A DNA stretch of 6,084 nucleotides from Chloroflexota bacterium (GTDB taxonomy: Bacteria > Chloroflexota > Anaerolineae > Anaerolineales > Villigracilaceae): positions 1-6,084 of the forward strand of contig JAKANW010000199.1 of assembly GCA_021823555.1 (NCBI GenBank), written 5' to 3'. Made by a program: the position numbers and the translations under genes. Shown in pieces: positions 1-6,084 of this stretch; position 1 is the stretch's first letter, and the number at the start of each line of letters is the position of its first letter. The notes beneath the pieces were generated by a model, which was given only the letters and a program-made list of their open reading frames with translations, was not told the DNA's origin and did no database searches.

Positions 1-342
1 CCGGCCACGTATATCGTTGGAAATTTGGTTGGCGGGCTTATCTTTGGCGTAGGTATGGCCCTGACCGGGTACTGACCGGGTACCTGCATCGCCGGGTCCG
101 GCGAAGGAAAATTGGATTATATCGTGCCTGGTTTGCTCGGTTTCCTGATTGGAGCGATCATCTACGGTCTGACTTATCAGCAGATATTCCCCGTCATTTC
201 CAATATTGCAAATTATGGCAACGTTGTCATTCCCGACCTGTGGAACATCAGCCCATTCCTTTTCATTCTCTTCTTCGCGTTGTTCTCTCTCCTGTTGTTT
301 TATCTGATCGACCGGGCAGGATTGCAACGCAGCGAGAAATAG
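1..342 (+). CDS. YeeE/YedE-family sulfur-compound transporter, 3' part, probable selenoprotein
   Basis: This is the C-terminal 113 residues of a YeeE/YedE (TsuA-like) inner-membrane protein, a family that imports thiosulfate and, in some members, is linked to selenium metabolism. The 5' end lies outside the window. Frame 1 is open from base 1 to the TAG at 340-342 apart from a TGA at codon 25 (73-75). Around it the protein reads G-M-A-L-T-G-Y-[TGA]-P-G-T-C, then G-E-G-K. The family signature is G-Y-C-P-G-T, so the TGA replaces the conserved pore cysteine. Both sides keep family character: a helix at about 5-23, another at 41-58 and a last one at about 85-104. A hairpin follows the TGA at a SECIS-like distance. 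Another Cys lies four residues after the TGA. The family also includes half-length forms, so the full length is unknown. I favour selenocysteine over a broken gene because the frame, the motif and the hairpin all agree. A point nonsense mutation or sequence error remains possible. Confidence 0.8.
73..75 (+). other. Probable selenocysteine (UGA) codon
   Basis: This TGA lies in frame at the invariant Cys of the YeeE/YedE G-Y-C-P-G-T motif, and the same frame continues with conserved residues for 88 codons. A Cys codon differs from TGA only in its third base. Other genes in the window (psrB, psrC, arsR) end in TGA, so it is not reassigned to Trp or Cys throughout. Decoding as Sec would need selA, selB, selC and selD elsewhere in the genome, which cannot be seen here. 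Confidence 0.7.
76..107 (+). promoter_or_regulatory. SECIS-like hairpin after the UGA
   Basis: The stem TCGCCG (89-94) pairs perfectly with CGGCGA (99-104) around the tetraloop GGTC (95-98). Counting the U of UGA as 1, the loop is at 23-26. In E. coli fdhF, as I recall it, the SECIS tetraloop is also GGUC at 22-25, with a bulged U at 17 and G23/U24 contacting SelB. Here U89 is also at position 17 and could either pair with A104 or be unpaired. Weak extra pairing is possible below (C87 with G106, C84 with G107). The structure is read by eye with no energy calculation. Confidence 0.65.
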
Positions 343-381
343 CAGTGATCGGTATCCCATGCTGATTAGTGGTTATCACTG
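343..381 (+). repeat. Imperfectly spaced inverted repeat between yeeE and psrA
   Basis: CAGTGAT (343-349) is the exact reverse complement of ATCACTG (375-381), with 25 bases between. It starts immediately after the transporter stop codon and ends 23 bases before the psrA start. It could be a regulator site or an intercistronic mRNA hairpin. Competing pairings (AGTG 368-371 with CACT 377-380) and the short arms make chance plausible. I saw no convincing -35/-10 promoter in the 62-base gap. Confidence 0.25.
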
Positions 382-394
382 ATCGCTGGCAACT

Positions 395-398
395 GGAG
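395..398 (+). promoter_or_regulatory. Ribosome binding site deciding the psrA start
   Basis: GGAG lies six bases before ATG 405. This supports 405 over the in-frame GTG at 369, which has no such site and would put twelve non-family residues in front of the Tat signal. Confidence 0.7.
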
Positions 399-404
399 AT
401 AACT

Positions 405-2570
405 ATGTCGAATACATTGTCACGACGTGACTTTCTAAAATTGGGCGGAGCCGCAGGCGCCGCGCTGGCTGCAGGGAGTTTTATTCCCCCGCAAGTGGCG
501 CAGGCAGCACGCGCAGCCGGGCATCTCAATGCCAATGGCGATGGCTATATACCCAGCATGTGTGAAATGTGCGTCTGGCGTTGCGGCCTGCTCGCCAAGG
601 TCAAAGATGGGCGCGTAGTCAAACTGGAAGGCAATCCCGAGCATCCCCATTCCAAAGGCAACCTGTGCCCGCGCGGACAGTCCGGTCTGATGAATACTTA
701 TGATCCTGACCGTGTGTTAACTCCGCTCATTCGGGTGGGACAGCGTGGCGAGGGGAAATTTCGCAAGGCCACTTGGGACGAAGCGCTGGATTTGGTCGCC
801 GGCAAGATGAAGGAAATAAAGGATAAGTATGGGCCGGAGGCAATGGTTTTCTCCTCCACCCACAACCTGTCCCAGCCATTATTTGAAAACTTGCTCGGCG
901 CTTTTGGCTCTCCTAATTACGGCACACAACGCAGCCTGTGCTTCAACGCCATGATCGTCGCCAACCTGATGACCTTTGGCATGGAGGAACCGAATCGTTC
1001 ATATGAAAATGTGAAGTACATTATTCTCACCGGGCGCAACCTGATGGAGGCCATCTCCACTTCCGAAACGCACGACTTGAGCCATGCAATTGACTCAGGT
1101 GTAAAGGTCGTTTATCTCGATCCGCGTTTCACGAAGACTGCCGCAAAGGCCGCCGAGTGGCTGCCCATCAAACCTGGTACTGACCTGGCTTTTCATCTGG
1201 CGCTGCTTAACGTCATCATAGGCAACAACCTGTATGACAGTTACTTTGTAAATAATTATATTGTCGGGTTCGATGGATTAGCCAACGAAGTACGAAAGTT
1301 CACTCCTGAATGGGCCTCCAAGATCACCGGCATCCCTGCTGAGACGATTGACCGTATCGCGCGTGAGTTTACCGCGGCCGGGAAATATGCCCTGGCGCAC
1401 AATGGCTGGCGCACCTCCAATTTCGTTAATTCATTCGCGGCTCAACGTGCCATTTCCGCCCTGAATGCAATTGTCGGCAATTGGGGCACTACCATGTTTC
1501 CGGCCGCGGCAGAGGGCGCAGGGTTGGGCGCGCCATCCCAGCCGCCGTATCCGCGCGTTTCAGCGCTGCGACTGGATGGCGTTCCATGGAAGTATCCCTT
1601 TGTTCCGCTAAAAATAGGCGTTTTCCAGGAGTTACGTGATGGCATCGTCGCGGGCGATCCCTATCAACCGCATGGTTGGTTCATCTCACGCCAAAATCCG
1701 ATCATGTCCATCCCGGATCGCGATAAAACACTGGAAGCTTTCAGCAAAATGGATTTTATCGTCACTGTGGATATCATCATGAATGATACAGACTGGTTCT
1801 CAGATATCGTCCTGCCTGAAGCCTCCTATCTCGAACGTTATGATCCACTCAATGTGGTGGGCGACAAAGCCTTCCTGCGTCAGCCTGTGATCGAGCCGCA
1901 AGGGGAAGGCAAATCAGCTTTGTGGATTTACAAGCAGCTCGGTGAGCGGCTGGGACTTGGTGACTACTTCCAATATAAAGACGAGGAAGACTATCTGCGC
2001 CAGCAGCTTGCACCTCTCGGCGTCGGCCTGGATGATGTCAAGGCCAAAGGCTATATAGAACTCCCTGGAGGAGACGGTCTTGAATATACCTGGAATACAA
2101 CCAGCGGCAAGATCGAACTCTATTCCGAAACGCTTGCCAAAGCCGGATTTGCCGGGACGACCACCTGGGAGGAGCCGCCTCAACCTGCCGAAGGTCAGTT
2201 CTACCTGCTCACCGGCAAGGTGGCGCAATCCACCCAGTTTGGCTCGCAGAACAACCAACTGCTTCATAAGTATATTGATGAACCCCGCCTGTGGATGAAT
2301 GCCAAGGTTGCTGCCGAAAAGGGTTTGGCGGATGGTGATTGGGTGGAGGTAACCAGCGATGTTGGAAAAGTTCACATTCTCTTGAATGCGACACAGGCCA
2401 TTCGTCCCGACTGTGTTTATATGACGCCCGGCTTTGGTCATCTTTCCAAAGGCTTGACCACAGCTTACGGCGTAGGCGCAAGCGACTCTGTCCTGCATGT
2501 TACATATACAGACCCGGTCAGCGGCGGTCAAGCGCTCAGCCAAACCTTTGTCACTGTAAAAAAGGCTTAG
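405..2570 (+). CDS. psrA: Tat-exported molybdopterin oxidoreductase, polysulfide/thiosulfate reductase type catalytic subunit
   Basis: This is a 721-residue member of the DMSO-reductase superfamily, closest in layout to PsrA/PhsA, which reduce polysulfide or thiosulfate outside the cytoplasm with a Mo-bis-MGD centre. The N-terminus carries a twin-arginine signal (S-R-R-D-F-L-K at 6-12, then an Ala/Gly-rich stretch to about 35). The N-terminal [4Fe-4S] motif is C53-x2-C56-x3-C60-x27-C88. The probable Mo ligand is C179 in Q-R-S-L-C-F-N, close to the Cys173 ligand I recall for Thermus PsrA. It is Cys, not Sec. The central Mo-cofactor domain follows, and the C-terminal dinucleotide-binding domain begins near residue 597. 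Length is normal for Psr/Phs and shorter than typical arsenate reductases (ArrA). It is followed ten bases later by the Fe-S subunit, and the sulfur transporter upstream favours a sulfur substrate. Exact substrate and direction of reaction cannot be read from sequence; a Qrc-like or tetrathionate role is possible. The symbol marks the family only. Confidence 0.88.
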   Translation: MSNTLSRRDFLKLGGAAGAALAAGSFIPPQVAQAARAAGHLNANGDGYIPSMCEMCVWRCGLLAKVKDGRVVKLEGNPEHPHSKGNLCPRGQSGLMNTYDPDRVLTPLIRVGQRGEGKFRKATWDEALDLVAGKMKEIKDKYGPEAMVFSSTHNLSQPLFENLLGAFGSPNYGTQRSLCFNAMIVANLMTFGMEEPNRSYENVKYIILTGRNLMEAISTSETHDLSHAIDSGVKVVYLDPRFTKTAAKAAEWLPIKPGTDLAFHLALLNVIIGNNLYDSYFVNNYIVGFDGLANEVRKFTPEWASKITGIPAETIDRIAREFTAAGKYALAHNGWRTSNFVNSFAAQRAISALNAIVGNWGTTMFPAAAEGAGLGAPSQPPYPRVSALRLDGVPWKYPFVPLKIGVFQELRDGIVAGDPYQPHGWFISRQNPIMSIPDRDKTLEAFSKMDFIVTVDIIMNDTDWFSDIVLPEASYLERYDPLNVVGDKAFLRQPVIEPQGEGKSALWIYKQLGERLGLGDYFQYKDEEDYLRQQLAPLGVGLDDVKAKGYIELPGGDGLEYTWNTTSGKIELYSETLAKAGFAGTTTWEEPPQPAEGQFYLLTGKVAQSTQFGSQNNQLLHKYIDEPRLWMNAKVAAEKGLADGDWVEVTSDVGKVHILLNATQAIRPDCVYMTPGFGHLSKGLTTAYGVGASDSVLHVTYTDPVSGGQALSQTFVTVKKA

Positions 2571-2580
2571 AGGTGTAATC

Positions 2581-3372
2581 ATGACAGAGATTAAACATCA
2601 CGCTTATCTTTTTGATGCCACACGCTGCATTGACTGCCGCGCTTGCATGGTGGCTTGCAGCGTGGAGAACAATATCCCGATGGATAAGACCCGCATCTGG
2701 GTGGCCGGGATCGGTCTCAAAGGCGAATATCCTGAACTGGAACGCGCCTCGATGGCCTACCATTGTATGCACTGCGAACATCCTGATTGTATGTCTGCCT
2801 GCCCAGTGGGAGCTTACAGCAAACGCGAAGATGGCCCGGTCATCTACAACCCGGACGTTTGTATCGGCTGCCGCTATTGCATGAACGCCTGTCCCTTTGG
2901 CGTACCGCATTTTGATTACGACAAGGGAATTATCGCCGGCGCTTTCATTGACAAATGCACTTTCTGTCCCCAACGTATTGACAATGGTCAGGAGCCGGCC
3001 TGTGTGGCCACCTGTCCCACCGACGCGTTGGAATATGGCGACCGCGATGAACTGATTGCCAAGGCGCATGCCCGCCTTGCAGCGCACCCTGACCGCTACA
3101 TTAACCATGTCTACGGCGAGTTCGAGAATGGCGGAACCTCTTATCTCATTCTTTCGCATGTGCCATTTGGCGAACTGGGCCTGCCCAACCTGCCCGAAAC
3201 ACCCGTTAATGCAGTCAGCGAAACAGTCATGGGTATCACCATCCCATTTGCCCTCAGTTGGGGCGCGGTACTGACGGGCGTTACCGTGGGTGTGCACGCC
3301 TATAACAAGAAAAAAGAAGCAGACAAAAAACAATCTGTTGAATCGGAAAAACAACCGGAGGAAACGAAATGA
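2581..3372 (+). CDS. psrB: Four-cluster [4Fe-4S] electron-transfer subunit with C-terminal membrane anchor
   Basis: This 263-residue subunit carries electrons between the Mo subunit and the membrane subunit. Sixteen Cys form four ferredoxin-type cluster sets: C16/19/22/26, C62/65/70/74, C94/97/100/104 and C126/129/141/145. The second has x4 and the fourth has x11 spacing, as in the DmsB/PsrB/HybA family. There is no signal peptide, so export probably occurs by riding with the Tat-tagged PsrA partner. Unlike simple PsrB proteins it has a hydrophobic helix at about 216-238, followed by a Lys/Glu-rich tail to 263, which resembles the tail anchor of HybA. The start ATG is preceded by AGAGG (2569-2573) at seven bases, overlapping the psrA stop. 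Its TGA stop overlaps the next ATG (ATGA), so translation is likely coupled. The tail orientation (anchor inside the membrane, charged tail toward the cytoplasm) is inference. Confidence 0.88.
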   Translation: MTEIKHHAYLFDATRCIDCRACMVACSVENNIPMDKTRIWVAGIGLKGEYPELERASMAYHCMHCEHPDCMSACPVGAYSKREDGPVIYNPDVCIGCRYCMNACPFGVPHFDYDKGIIAGAFIDKCTFCPQRIDNGQEPACVATCPTDALEYGDRDELIAKAHARLAAHPDRYINHVYGEFENGGTSYLILSHVPFGELGLPNLPETPVNAVSETVMGITIPFALSWGAVLTGVTVGVHAYNKKKEADKKQSVESEKQPEETK

Positions 3373-4529
3373 GAATGCAGGTTACCATTACCCCGCGCCT
3401 CCGCTTAAGCCCGCTGGTCATGGTTTTGCTAGCTCTGATGGGCATAGCTTTTGTCGTTGCCATGGCCCGTTATATCTATGGGATCGGCGCCATTAGCGAC
3501 CTGAGCTACTCCTACCCGTGGGGTTTCTGGATCAGCTTTGACCTGTTCACCGGCGTTGCCATTGGCAGCGGCGCGTTCGTCATGGCTGCGACCGTATACA
3601 TCTTCGAGTTAAAGGAATTCCGTCCTTTGCTCCGCCCCTCGGTGCTGACCGGCTTTCTGGGTTACATCATGGTTGTCATTGCCCTGCTGGTTGACCTGGG
3701 CCATCCTGAGCGCATCTGGTACATGATGGTCCACTGGAACCACACATCGGTCTTGCTGGAGATCGGCATCTGCGTGATGTCCTACCTGACGGTGCTGGCC
3801 ATCGAATTCGCCCCGGTTGTATTCGAGGGGGTCAAGTGGCAGAAGTTTGCCCACTTCATTCACAAATTCATCATGCCGTTTGTGATCCTGGGCGTGGTGC
3901 TCTCCACCCTGCACCAATCCTCGCTCGGTTCCCTGTTGCTGATCCAGCCTGCAAAGCTGTATCCGTTATGGTGGACGCCCATCCTTCCGGTTCTATTCTT
4001 CATCTCTGCGGTTTCCATTGGCTTGGCGATGATCATCTTCGAATCGTCGCTCAGTTCACGCTATTTCAAACGCGGCCTGGAAATTCATCTGTTGGAGAAA
4101 CTTGCCAGTGCCATTCCGGTCGTCCTGGCAATCTACCTAGTTGTCAGGTTCACCCAACTGACTATCGCCGGTGATTTGAAATACCTGTTTACCAGTGGAA
4201 TGATGAGCATCCTGTTTTGGACGGAGATCATCCTCGGTTCAATCCTGCCCCTGATCCTGTTCTCGTTTAAGCGGGTCCGCCAAAGCCCCAACGGACTCCT
4301 GGTCGGCGCAATCATCCTGCTGGTCGGCATGATCCTGGATCGCTTCGATGTGAGCTGGTTGGCTGTCCGCCACCCCGACCCACTGACCTATTTGCCAACA
4401 TTCATGAGCAATGTTCATTACATTCCGTCTCTGCCGGAAGTTTCCGTTTCCATTGGCATCTTCTCGGCTGGGATTCTGGCTTTCGGCCTGGCGGCCAAGT
4501 ACCTGCCGCTCTTCGAAAACGAGGAATGA
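3369..4529 (+). CDS. psrC: NrfD/HybB-type quinone-interacting membrane subunit
   Basis: This 386-residue integral membrane protein would exchange electrons with the quinone pool for the psrAB enzyme. I count about ten hydrophobic helices: roughly 14-36, 53-78, 90-110, 126-150, 166-190, 203-225, 247-266, 277-300, 309-324 and 357-380. Family marks are G-H-P-E-R at 111-115, H-Q-S-S-L-G-S at 182-188 (typical of HybB-like members) and Y-I-P-S-L-P-E at 351-357. Ten helices and about 390 residues fit HybB or QrcD better than the eight-helix, shorter PsrC. The match to a HybA-like partner upstream is consistent. The start ATG overlaps the psrB stop and has GGAGG at 3357-3361. No haem-binding pattern is evident, as expected for NrfD proteins. 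The psrC symbol is used for position and role; a hybB-like name would be equally fair. Confidence 0.87.
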   Translation: MRMQVTITPRLRLSPLVMVLLALMGIAFVVAMARYIYGIGAISDLSYSYPWGFWISFDLFTGVAIGSGAFVMAATVYIFELKEFRPLLRPSVLTGFLGYIMVVIALLVDLGHPERIWYMMVHWNHTSVLLEIGICVMSYLTVLAIEFAPVVFEGVKWQKFAHFIHKFIMPFVILGVVLSTLHQSSLGSLLLIQPAKLYPLWWTPILPVLFFISAVSIGLAMIIFESSLSSRYFKRGLEIHLLEKLASAIPVVLAIYLVVRFTQLTIAGDLKYLFTSGMMSILFWTEIILGSILPLILFSFKRVRQSPNGLLVGAIILLVGMILDRFDVSWLAVRHPDPLTYLPTFMSNVHYIPSLPEVSVSIGIFSAGILAFGLAAKYLPLFENEE

Positions 4530-4571: not shown

Positions 4572-4898
4572 ATGACCCAGGAAGCCACTATCTTTGGTAT
4601 GCAAGCCGAACTGTACCTGGCAATGGGCCACGCGATTCGGTTGAAGATCGTATACCTGTTGCTCAAAGAAGGGCCCAAAAGGGTCAACAGTATTGCTGAA
4701 AGCCTCGAGATCAATCAGACTACCATCTCCCGTCATCTTGCGCTGCTGCGAAATGTGGGCATTCTCACTGCCCGGCGACAGGGAACAGATATGATCTATC
4801 AGATTGCCAGCCCCAAAATCGTTAGCGTTTGTGATTTGATGCGTGATATGTTGGCAGAACGGGAAAGCCAGCGTTCGGAAATCGCGCAGAAGATGTGA
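4572..4898 (+). CDS. ArsR-family winged-helix transcriptional regulator
   Basis: This is a 108-residue ArsR/SmtB-type repressor-like protein. The N-terminal helix leads into A-M-G-H-A-I-R-L-K-I at 17-26, the recognition region is N-Q-T-T-I-S-R-H-L-A-L-L-R at 48-60, and the wing is around A-R-R-Q-G-T-D-M-I-Y at 67-76. Length is normal for the family. The start has GAGGAG at 4560-4565, six bases before ATG. It contains one Cys only (C87), without the CxC metal motif of ArsR/SmtB and without the two-Cys pair used by sulfide-responsive SqrR/BigR. The inducer is therefore not obvious. Its place after a sulfur-respiration operon and beside a 17-bp dyad suggests local control, possibly self-regulation. 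The ligand could be a sulfur or selenium species through C87, but this is inference. There is no sign of truncation. Confidence 0.85.
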   Translation: MTQEATIFGMQAELYLAMGHAIRLKIVYLLLKEGPKRVNSIAESLEINQTTISRHLALLRNVGILTARRQGTDMIYQIASPKIVSVCDLMRDMLAERESQRSEIAQKM

Positions 4899-4917
4899 TG
4901 CGCCGGACTTGAAAGAT

Positions 4918-5586
4918 ATGCCGCCCGCATCCTTGTTCACGCCCCGCCGTCGCGCAGCAGGCTACCCAAAAGGCTCACAACCTGCCGAGAATTGTACGTC
5001 CGGCGCAAATGTTGTGGGATTACGCCTGCGCGCCCTGCGCAAGGAACAAAAATTGTCCCTGCGGGCGTTGGCAGGGATGAGCGGACTCAGCATCAATACC
5101 CTCAGCTTGATCGAGCACGGACGCACATCTCCCAGTGTCAATACGTTGCAGCAAATTGCTGAGCAATTGCAGTGTCCTATAGCAGCTTTTTTTGAATATA
5201 GTTTGGAAGGCAAAAAAGTAGTGTACCAGCAAGCCGGTGAGCGTCCACGTGTAACCTTCAAGCACGGGACCATGGAAGATCTGGGAGCAGGCATGCCTCG
5301 TATGGGGGCTGAACCGCTCATCTTTACGATGGAACCCAATGCCGATAGCGGCAATAGCCCCAGCGTGCATACCGGGCGTGAATTTGTTTACTGTATTGAG
5401 GGTCACATTCTTTACCTGATAAATAATGATGCATACCTGCTCTCGCCAGGTGACAGCATCTTGTTCGATGCGTATCTGCCCCACCGCTGGAAAAATGTCG
5501 ATTCCATGCCTTCCAGCGCCCTGTTTGTCCTTTGTCCCATGGATGCGCGCGAACACCCAAGCGAGAGACACTTCATGCCAGAATAA
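4918..5586 (+). CDS. XRE-cupin transcriptional regulator
   Basis: This 222-residue one-component regulator has two domains. An N-terminal tail of about 32 residues (Arg/Pro-rich) precedes an XRE/Cro-type helix-turn-helix at about 34-93, containing the core S-L-R-A-L-A, the turn S-G-L-S-I-N-T-L-S-L-I-E and S-P-S-V-N-T-L. A cupin domain covers about 110-215, with first motif H151...E155...E161-G162 and second motif P177-G-D...P188-H189-R190. Cupins of this fusion class usually bind a small ligand or metal; which one is unknown. Start 4918 is 19 bases after the arsR stop. It lacks a clear Shine-Dalgarno sequence, so translation may depend on coupling. An upstream in-frame ATG at 4843 would overlap arsR and add residues with no family character. 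An in-frame GTG at 5014, near the domain border, is an alternative. Confidence 0.83.
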   Translation: MPPASLFTPRRRAAGYPKGSQPAENCTSGANVVGLRLRALRKEQKLSLRALAGMSGLSINTLSLIEHGRTSPSVNTLQQIAEQLQCPIAAFFEYSLEGKKVVYQQAGERPRVTFKHGTMEDLGAGMPRMGAEPLIFTMEPNADSGNSPSVHTGREFVYCIEGHILYLINNDAYLLSPGDSILFDAYLPHRWKNVDSMPSSALFVLCPMDAREHPSERHFMPE

Positions 5587-5615
5587 TGAAAACCTATCTG
5601 TGGGCATTTACAATC

Positions 5616-5623
5616 AAAGGAGG
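5616..5623 (+). promoter_or_regulatory. Strong ribosome binding site for the cytochrome gene
   Basis: AAAGGAGG lies five bases before ATG 5629. It is the strongest Shine-Dalgarno match in the window and fixes the start of the following open-ended gene. Confidence 0.8.
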
Positions 5624-5628
5624 TACCA

Positions 5629-6084
5629 ATGTCTCACAAACGTCAATTGACGATCGTTCTTGCGGGGATCACTCTGTTGATCCTGAGCATATCCTTCCTT
5701 GCATCGCCCTCTCCTGCTTTGGCGCAATGCGGGGAACCTCCCCTGACGCGATCATCCTGTATTACCTGTCATGAGACGCAGACACCCGTCCTCGACCAGG
5801 GTGAGTGGCACATCATCCATGCCCCCCAGGATCTCTGCATCAACTGTCATGGAGGCAATGGCACCAGCATGGACAAGGCGCTTGCGCATGGCGGCCTGAT
5901 TGCCAACCCATTGAACAACATCTACACAGATTGTCATAGCTGCCATCCGGATGATTACACTGTACGAGCGAACCGGTATGCGACAACTTTGGGGATGTCA
6001 GCCAGTAGTTGCGCCACCCCGACAGCGGTACTTGCTGTCCCGGTCAGGTATCAGCCCGTTGTCATCCAGCCAAGTGAAGCGCCG
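5629..6084 (+). CDS. Secreted multiheme cytochrome c, 5' part
   Basis: The frame is open from ATG 5629 to the window end (152 codons seen, no stop), so the gene is truncated on the right. A Sec signal peptide is visible: positive start S-H-K-R, hydrophobic core at about 8-25, cleavage probably after A-L-A (32) before Q33. Three c-type haem sites follow: C44-I-T-C-H48, C70-I-N-C-H74 and C102-H-S-C-H106. Further Cys at 34 and 128 and His at 61, 64, 87 and 103 could supply ligands or disulfides. After about residue 128 the chain becomes Pro/Val-rich with no more CxxCH in view, and it may lead to a membrane anchor or linker beyond the window. It would sit outside the cytoplasmic membrane as an electron carrier. 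Its place 42 bases after the regulators suggests it serves the Psr-like enzyme, by inference. It does not look like NapC/NrfH, which would have a membrane helix and four or more haems. Confidence 0.85.
   Translation, partial: MSHKRQLTIVLAGITLLILSISFLASPSPALAQCGEPPLTRSSCITCHETQTPVLDQGEWHIIHAPQDLCINCHGGNGTSMDKALAHGGLIANPLNNIYTDCHSCHPDDYTVRANRYATTLGMSASSCATPTAVLAVPVRYQPVVIQPSEAP

Follow-up and report, generated by a model that had tools for sequence, protein, structure and literature searches.

According to the accessible part of PMC9312934, the bacterial selenoproteins described so far are for the most part considered redox proteins; the same source lists a YeeE/YedE selenoprotein. One example of the latter, WP_012471001.1 with the motif GUxSG, is given in the available portion of PMC13188914, where the Sec-containing YeeE/YedE is credited to PMC2398784 and PMC5029168. 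Within the main texts, the word YeeE was absent from PMC2398784, and neither YeeE nor YedE occurred in PMC5029168 or PMC12013277; the words YeeE and selenoprotein both occur in PMC12170894. In TsuA, the YeeE protein of Spirochaeta thermophila, Cys293, Cys91 and Cys22 are aligned across the membrane (PMC11073785, in part), and Cys91 and Cys293 are indispensable (PMC11582611, in part). The same portion of PMC11582611 describes PmpA and PmpB, in which YeeE is divided between two genes, and discusses, as an open question, covalent chalcogen chemistry versus hydrogen bonding as the way in which such channels work. Among the listings and opening lines of abstracts in the open-licence literature, no Sec form was found of the YeeE half described below, or in the class in which it occurs.

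An in-frame TGA in a YeeE/YedE half-gene

We analyzed a stretch of 6,084 nucleotides from a Chloroflexota bacterium, referred to as the window. Its main features are as follows.

1..342, + strand: yeeE2, N-half (PmpB-like) YeeE/YedE protein, 5' end beyond the window, read as ...TGY-Sec-PGTC... (from the ORF list, profile search and full-length relatives)
73..75, + strand: in-frame TGA, taken as selenocysteine, at the column of TsuA Cys91 (from alignments)
85..87, + strand: Cys codon four residues after Sec (UPGTC)
89..104, + strand: SECIS-like hairpin TCGCCG-GGTC-CGGCGA, with the loop beginning after 19 nt from the TGA (yardstick, fdhF)
369..2570, + strand: PhsA/PsrA-like molybdopterin oxidoreductase with a Tat signal, the next operon gene; as the start, ATG at 405 is favoured over the first GTG, at 369
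2581..3372, + strand: 4Fe-4S electron-transfer subunit, HmcB/HybA-like (from profile search and relatives' operons)
3369..4529, + strand: NrfD/HybB/HmcC-like membrane subunit (from profile search and relatives' operons)

Positions 1-342 form a single forward frame whose sole interruption is the TGA at 73-75; it reads GMALTGY, the TGA, and then PGTCIAGSGEGKLDY. The window holds only the 3' part of the gene, truncated at the 5' side by the window edge, and standard ORF calling splits yeeE2 at the TGA. The 24 residues preceding the TGA matched PF04143 with an E-value of 1.3e-4 and 22.1 bits, under the curated cut-off of 27 bits, and the piece after the TGA gave no PF04143 match by itself in the profile search of the window. 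The original prediction was that a TGA interrupts a YeeE/YedE gene in frame at this position, which both the letters of the window and the recurrence of the TGA in relatives confirmed for a YeeE/YedE half-gene.

Scanning genome contigs with the read-through protein yielded 51 Chloroflexota loci (set 1), whose record titles name Anaerolineales, Anaerolineae, Anaerolineaceae, Anaerolinea, Chloroflexi or Chloroflexota, and in one case Brevefilum fermentans. The codon at the Sec column was TGA in 27 of them, TGC in 23 and TGT in one. No other stop occurred in the aligned frame of any of the 51 loci, and the genes were otherwise open from the chosen start, with one (L050) running off the contig end. 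Of 400 Chloroflexota genomes sampled, 20 matched; seven matches were close (77-99% identity), five of these with TGA, and the remaining 16 matches (32-37% identity) had no stop. A class-wide sample of 396 genomes gave matches in 45 genomes at 46 places, with TGA at 28 and Cys at 18. Seven of these places were set 1 loci again (four TGA, three Cys), and the other 39 matches constitute set 2 (24 TGA and 15 Cys, seven of the Cys rows being distant, at 34-39% identity). TGA at the same column in 27/51 and 28/46 cases excludes chance, with the proviso that all loci come from related Chloroflexota and the rows are not independent. The TGA/Cys pairs that the original prediction expected among homologues were found in both sets (27 TGA and 24 Cys of 51; 24 and 15 of 39).

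Two further features accompany the TGA. A Cys four residues downstream of the Sec column was present in all 52 TGA genes but in only 23 of 39 Cys genes. In addition, dN/dS for the region after the TGA had a median of 0.11 (maximum 0.48) over those 222 of the 325 pairs for which dS was usable; purifying selection acts downstream of the TGA.

Several additional observations concern the residues around this column. Three residues before Sec/Cys (window 64-66), Thr accompanied Sec in 27 of 52 TGA genes, while Ser accompanied Cys in 25 of 39 Cys genes and Thr in one. The near-identical genes L089 and L090 also differ by Ser/Thr here, and a co-change of this residue with Sec/Cys is possible from the alignments. 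L107, L108 and L111 form a Cys-only clade in which VCAAP replaces the usual CPGT motif. One genome (G654) holds two TGA-containing copies, L088 (69% identity to the query) and L110 (47%).

A SECIS-like hairpin follows the TGA

In bacterial SECIS elements, the apical loop contains G and is located roughly at +16 to +37. In the window, the loop of the hairpin at 89-104 lies in a register similar to that of E. coli K-12 fdhF, in which GGU follows after 18 nt; the GG of the SECIS-like loop is placed at +18/19. We defined a hairpin motif as a stem of at least five pairs with a loop of 3-5 nt that begins with GG and starts after 17 to 21 nt; this motif was set after viewing set 1, and its exact limits were fixed after a looser criterion had been run on set 2. 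The motif was present in 28/28 TGA genes versus 3/24 Cys genes (L004, L012 and L017), and in 21/24 TGA genes versus 1/15 Cys genes (L089) in set 2, where the strict form was missing from the TGA genes L106, L109 and L115. The looser criterion, the best hairpin with a GG loop, was satisfied by 17/24 TGA genes versus 2/15 Cys genes of set 2. Synonymous recoding (200 draws each) gave the motif in a mean of 4.0 of 28 genes (maximum 12) and 5.2 of 24 genes (maximum 10). By this motif of our own, the SECIS-like element sought near the TGA in the original prediction is present in the window and in nearly all TGA relatives.

Two main solutions of the hairpin were observed: a GGUC tetraloop, encoded by GGG-TCC, and a GGN triloop, encoded by GGN-GGC or GGN-AGC. 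The pair flanking the triloop was mostly C-G (23/52) or T-A (7/52) in TGA genes and was mixed in Cys genes. Codon likeness among TGA genes was 0.685 inside the element versus 0.41 outside, and the corresponding values for Cys genes were 0.539 and 0.44-0.45. An Rfam scan of the window at the gathering score detected no family and no SECIS. Among the Cys genes that carry the motif, L017 lies in a genome (G017) in which all four Sec genes were absent by the criteria used; the hairpins of L017, L004 and L012 are possible further SECIS fossils.

Sec genes in the genomes of relatives

Sec genes were searched in 50 genomes of set 1 (26 TGA and 24 Cys); L048, whose record prefix is the same as that of L032, was omitted. 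SelA matched in 26/26 TGA genomes (25 over cut-off) versus 19/24 Cys genomes. Over their cut-offs, SelB was found in 22/26 TGA versus 20/24 Cys genomes and SelD in 24/26 versus 18/24, and a tRNA-Sec of at least 57 bits occurred in 21/26 versus 19/24; G002 had a partial tRNA-Sec match of 51.3 bits. In four Cys-form genomes (G010, G013, G017 and G041), SelA, SelB, SelD and tRNA-Sec were all absent by the criteria used. For set 2, SelA and SelD were searched in 23 TGA and 15 Cys genomes: SelA matched in 22/23 TGA genomes (21 over cut-off) versus 14/15 Cys genomes (13 over), and SelD was over cut-off in 20/23 versus 14/15. The check for Sec genes raised with the original prediction, carried out on the genomes of TGA relatives, therefore found them in nearly all: 48 of 49 TGA-form genomes of both sets had a SelA match, and the remaining one (G704) has a SelD with TGA. 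The gaps in some TGA genomes are presumably due to incomplete assemblies.

Among 14 control genomes, SelB matched in all 14 but was over cut-off in two; SelD was over cut-off in two and SelA in one. tRNA-Sec matches at E ≤ 0.001 occurred in 50/50 genomes and in 14/14 controls (five over cut-off), and the 57-bit limit was set after viewing the table; the many scores of about 45-48 bits probably stem from other tRNAs with a long arm. Sec genes were common in both TGA and Cys genomes, and therefore discriminate little between the two: they permit the Sec reading but do not prove it. From these relatives we infer the Sec machinery of the window's host.

SelD provided an internal control. We examined 67 stretches, comprising all 43 set 1 places over cut-off and 24 set 2 places; 11 SelD genes of set 2 Cys genomes and one fragment without a stop were left out. 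In 66 of the 67, TGA was the only stop and occupied the same active-site position (AG-TGA-A-x-K). The exception (G732, which carries L085 and L172) had Cys at this position. This genome has the Cys form, and SelA matched in the other 14 Cys genomes of set 2 but not here, a combination consistent with loss of Sec use.

Alternative readings of the TGA

An 11-base perfect direct repeat (TGACCGGGTAC, at 62-72 and 73-83) overlaps the TGA, as might be expected if the codon were a sequencing or assembly error caused by slippage, or if the gene were a pseudogene. The perfect repeat was absent in 27 TGA relatives, all of which keep the TGA, and slippage was rejected for this reason. For the family as a whole, error and decay were refuted because 27 of the 51 loci, which stem from other assemblies, likewise carry TGA at this column and are otherwise free of stops in the aligned frame, because dN/dS downstream of the TGA is 0.11 and because the hairpin is co-conserved; the lone TGA with further disabling mutations that the original prediction named as counterevidence was not what the relatives contained. 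We consider a defective or misread gene extremely improbable. Decoding of TGA as Trp (table 4) or as some other standard residue, with no role for selenium, was given the same very low standing. It would fit a database relative (P0059, one of 37 aligned) that shows Trp at the Sec column, as a table-4 translation would; the Trp of P0059 is probably such a translation of TGA. However, the non-TGA relatives have Cys at the DNA level in every case (24/24 in set 1 and 18/18 in the class sample, three of them shared with set 1). In L020, L029 and L043, yeeE2 itself ends at a TGA as its ordinary stop, which argues against TGA as Trp, and TGA also terminates the hmcB-, nrfD- and arsR-like genes of the window. 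Together with a hairpin that tracks the TGA and a SelD that is itself a Sec gene in these genomes, this led us to reject Trp decoding.

Sec genes can terminate at UGA under selenium scarcity. The TGA could serve as a programmed stop, with the C-terminal part made separately from TTG 112, or as a selenium-sensing regulatory switch, and a TTG-started ORF of 76 aa is present at 112-342. Such truncation would cut within the most conserved motif, whereas the Cys relatives make one continuous chain, and of the 28 TGA genes only seven have TTG at column 38 (112-114). Truncation, judged for the start at TTG 112, was rejected on these grounds; we regard it as highly unlikely, if marginally less so than the two readings above. 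That the TGA at 73-75 is a selenocysteine codon is very highly probable, and we put the overall explanation, in which a Sec codon read through SECIS/SelB insertion lies in a split sulfur channel, at a probability of about 0.9.

The transporter half, its pore column and its operon

The full-length relative P0122 of locus L006 (186 aa, one TGA) matched PF04143 at positions 10-162 with 77.8 bits (cut-off 27). P0123, encoded directly upstream, matched PF04143 at 170-309, corresponding to the C-half. L006 thus has the arrangement of a PmpAB-type split YeeE, with adjacent N- and C-half genes and one conserved Cys/Sec column in each. The partner C-half, which lies outside the window, retained the cysteine of a GGCTSG motif in 49/49 loci where it was found, and gave no match against the PDB by sequence.

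In an alignment of residues 5-37 with residues 71-103 of S. thermophila TsuA, the Sec column corresponds to Cys91; this match is weak (phmmer E 0.054), and Cys91 falls in register with a GN..GG..FG.GM context. Replacement of the family's key Cys by the TGA, as originally proposed, agrees with this weak alignment and with the essential role of Cys91 given in the available part of PMC11582611. Sec and the +4 Cys are the sole Cys/Sec positions of P0122, so that it has no counterpart of TsuA Cys22. The predicted structure of the full-length relative (38-row alignment) was poor (pLDDT 48.6, pTM 0.29), so the mapping onto TsuA is one of sequence only. The TsuA models of NCBIfam scored well under their cut-offs (39 of 400 bits for NF052577 and 28.3 of 645 for NF041049), and the genes are split; no NCBIfam model covered the yeeE2 protein above its cut-off.

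The usual gene order in the relatives is arsR, cytochrome, yeeE1, yeeE2, phsA-like, hmcB-like and nrfD-like; for some loci, the automatic list omits single members. A PhsA-like gene, whole or in part, was downstream in 49/51 loci; it was not seen in L028 and L050, where the contig ends soon after. The PhsA-like protein of the window matched the Thermus enzyme 2VPW over nearly its whole length (455 bits) and carries a Tat signal, so that this reductase is probably active outside the membrane. After the operon, the window contains at 4572-5586 and 5629-6084 an ArsR-type regulator, an HTH-cupin regulator and a cytochrome resembling the one at the operon front; the genes at 4572-6084 are possibly the start of a second copy of the operon.

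We propose the following model, in which Sec in the protein, the heterodimer, the substrate and the direction of transport are all inferred. The hairpin at 89-104 would recruit SelB with Sec-tRNA(Sec), and Sec would be inserted where TsuA has Cys91, the middle cysteine of its pore relay. The yeeE2 product would represent the PmpB-like N-half of a divided YeeE, and the partner half, upstream in relatives, would supply the GGCTSG Cys. Both halves would most likely form one channel for sulfane-sulfur species (thiosulfate, polysulfide or similar) serving the Phs/Psr-type respiratory reductase of the same operon, a polysulfide/thiosulfate-type complex. Transport of sulfur species by YeeE1-YeeE2 is reasonably likely. 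As a relay residue, Sec would be more reactive and more readily reduced, perhaps in combination with the +4 Cys; a true redox pair of the two is conceivable but rather unlikely.

Switching between Sec and Cys

A tree of 84 rows was built with the codon masked, the seven distant Cys rows left out and a midpoint root; its bootstrap had not settled. On this tree, the TGA label needed 13 changes, of which well-supported branches force at least seven. A tree of the first 52 rows needed six changes, at least two of them forced by supported branches, again with the bootstrap not settled. L089 (TGT) was nested in a supported group with the TGA rows L090, L086 and L088. Around the codon, L089 and L090 share 144/150 bases and have an identical hairpin; identity over the operon stretches is 93-95%, and SelA and a TGA-type SelD have been retained in both genomes. 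L089 is best read as a Sec-to-Cys change that would have left a fossil SECIS. L101 (TGT), within another supported and otherwise TGA group, is likely a second such case. With a midpoint root and unsettled bootstrap, the direction of switching elsewhere in the tree can only be suggested.

The documented cases of Sec-to-Cys change in bacteria are mainly FdhA and SelD according to the available part of PMC13188914, and the literature consulted calls this direction rare in bacteria. The repeated Sec/Cys switching observed here, including the fossil SECIS, is the most unusual aspect of this family, and such switches bear on how often bacteria abandon Sec. As a tentative idea that we hold to be somewhat improbable in full, Sec may have been ancestral for this transporter half in Anaerolineae, with a UPGTC Sec-Cys pore pair that would covalently take up and release sulfane sulfur, and lineages may have reverted repeatedly to Cys.

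Comparison with known systems

Sec in the place of a relay cysteine within a membrane channel for sulfur raises the question of covalent chalcogen chemistry versus hydrogen bonding, and close Sec/Cys pairs in one operon offer a natural experiment on channel chemistry. The gene had originally been put forward as a new selenoprotein. The Sec reading stands, but a Sec form of YeeE/YedE (PF04143) with the GUxSG motif has already been published (PMC13188914, accessible part); the present gene is therefore a new subfamily or variant and not a new family. It shares with the WP_012471001.1 type, as far as that source describes it, membership in PF04143 and a Sec predicted to replace the family Cys. 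Compared by motif only, the two differ: the motif here is [Y/F]UPGTC (YUPGT in the window) and not GUxSG; TsuA Cys91 itself sits in GGCASG. In addition, the present protein is an N-half of ~183 aa in Anaerolineae, with a C-half that keeps Cys in GGCTSG.

With TsuA/YeeE of Spirochaeta thermophila (PDB 6LEO, 8J4C and 8K1R), the common point is the alignment of Sec with Cys91, one of three relay cysteines; however, TsuA consists of one chain (339 aa in 6LEO) and contains Cys but no Sec, whereas the yeeE halves here are split. The selenium-metabolism membrane protein YedE/FdhT showed weak similarity (E 3.1e-6 for NF033796 and 4.3e-5 for TIGR04112), with scores far under the cut-offs (26.6 of 350 and 22.9 of 200 bits); YedE/FdhT is a proposed selenium transporter and not a selenoprotein of the present type. 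The PmpA/PmpB system, likened here by its description in the available part of PMC11582611, likewise has two half-length genes that correspond to the C-half and the N-half of YeeE; the halves in our loci differ in being about 180-195 aa and not about 130, in having a Sec form and in belonging to an operon with a Phs-like reductase.
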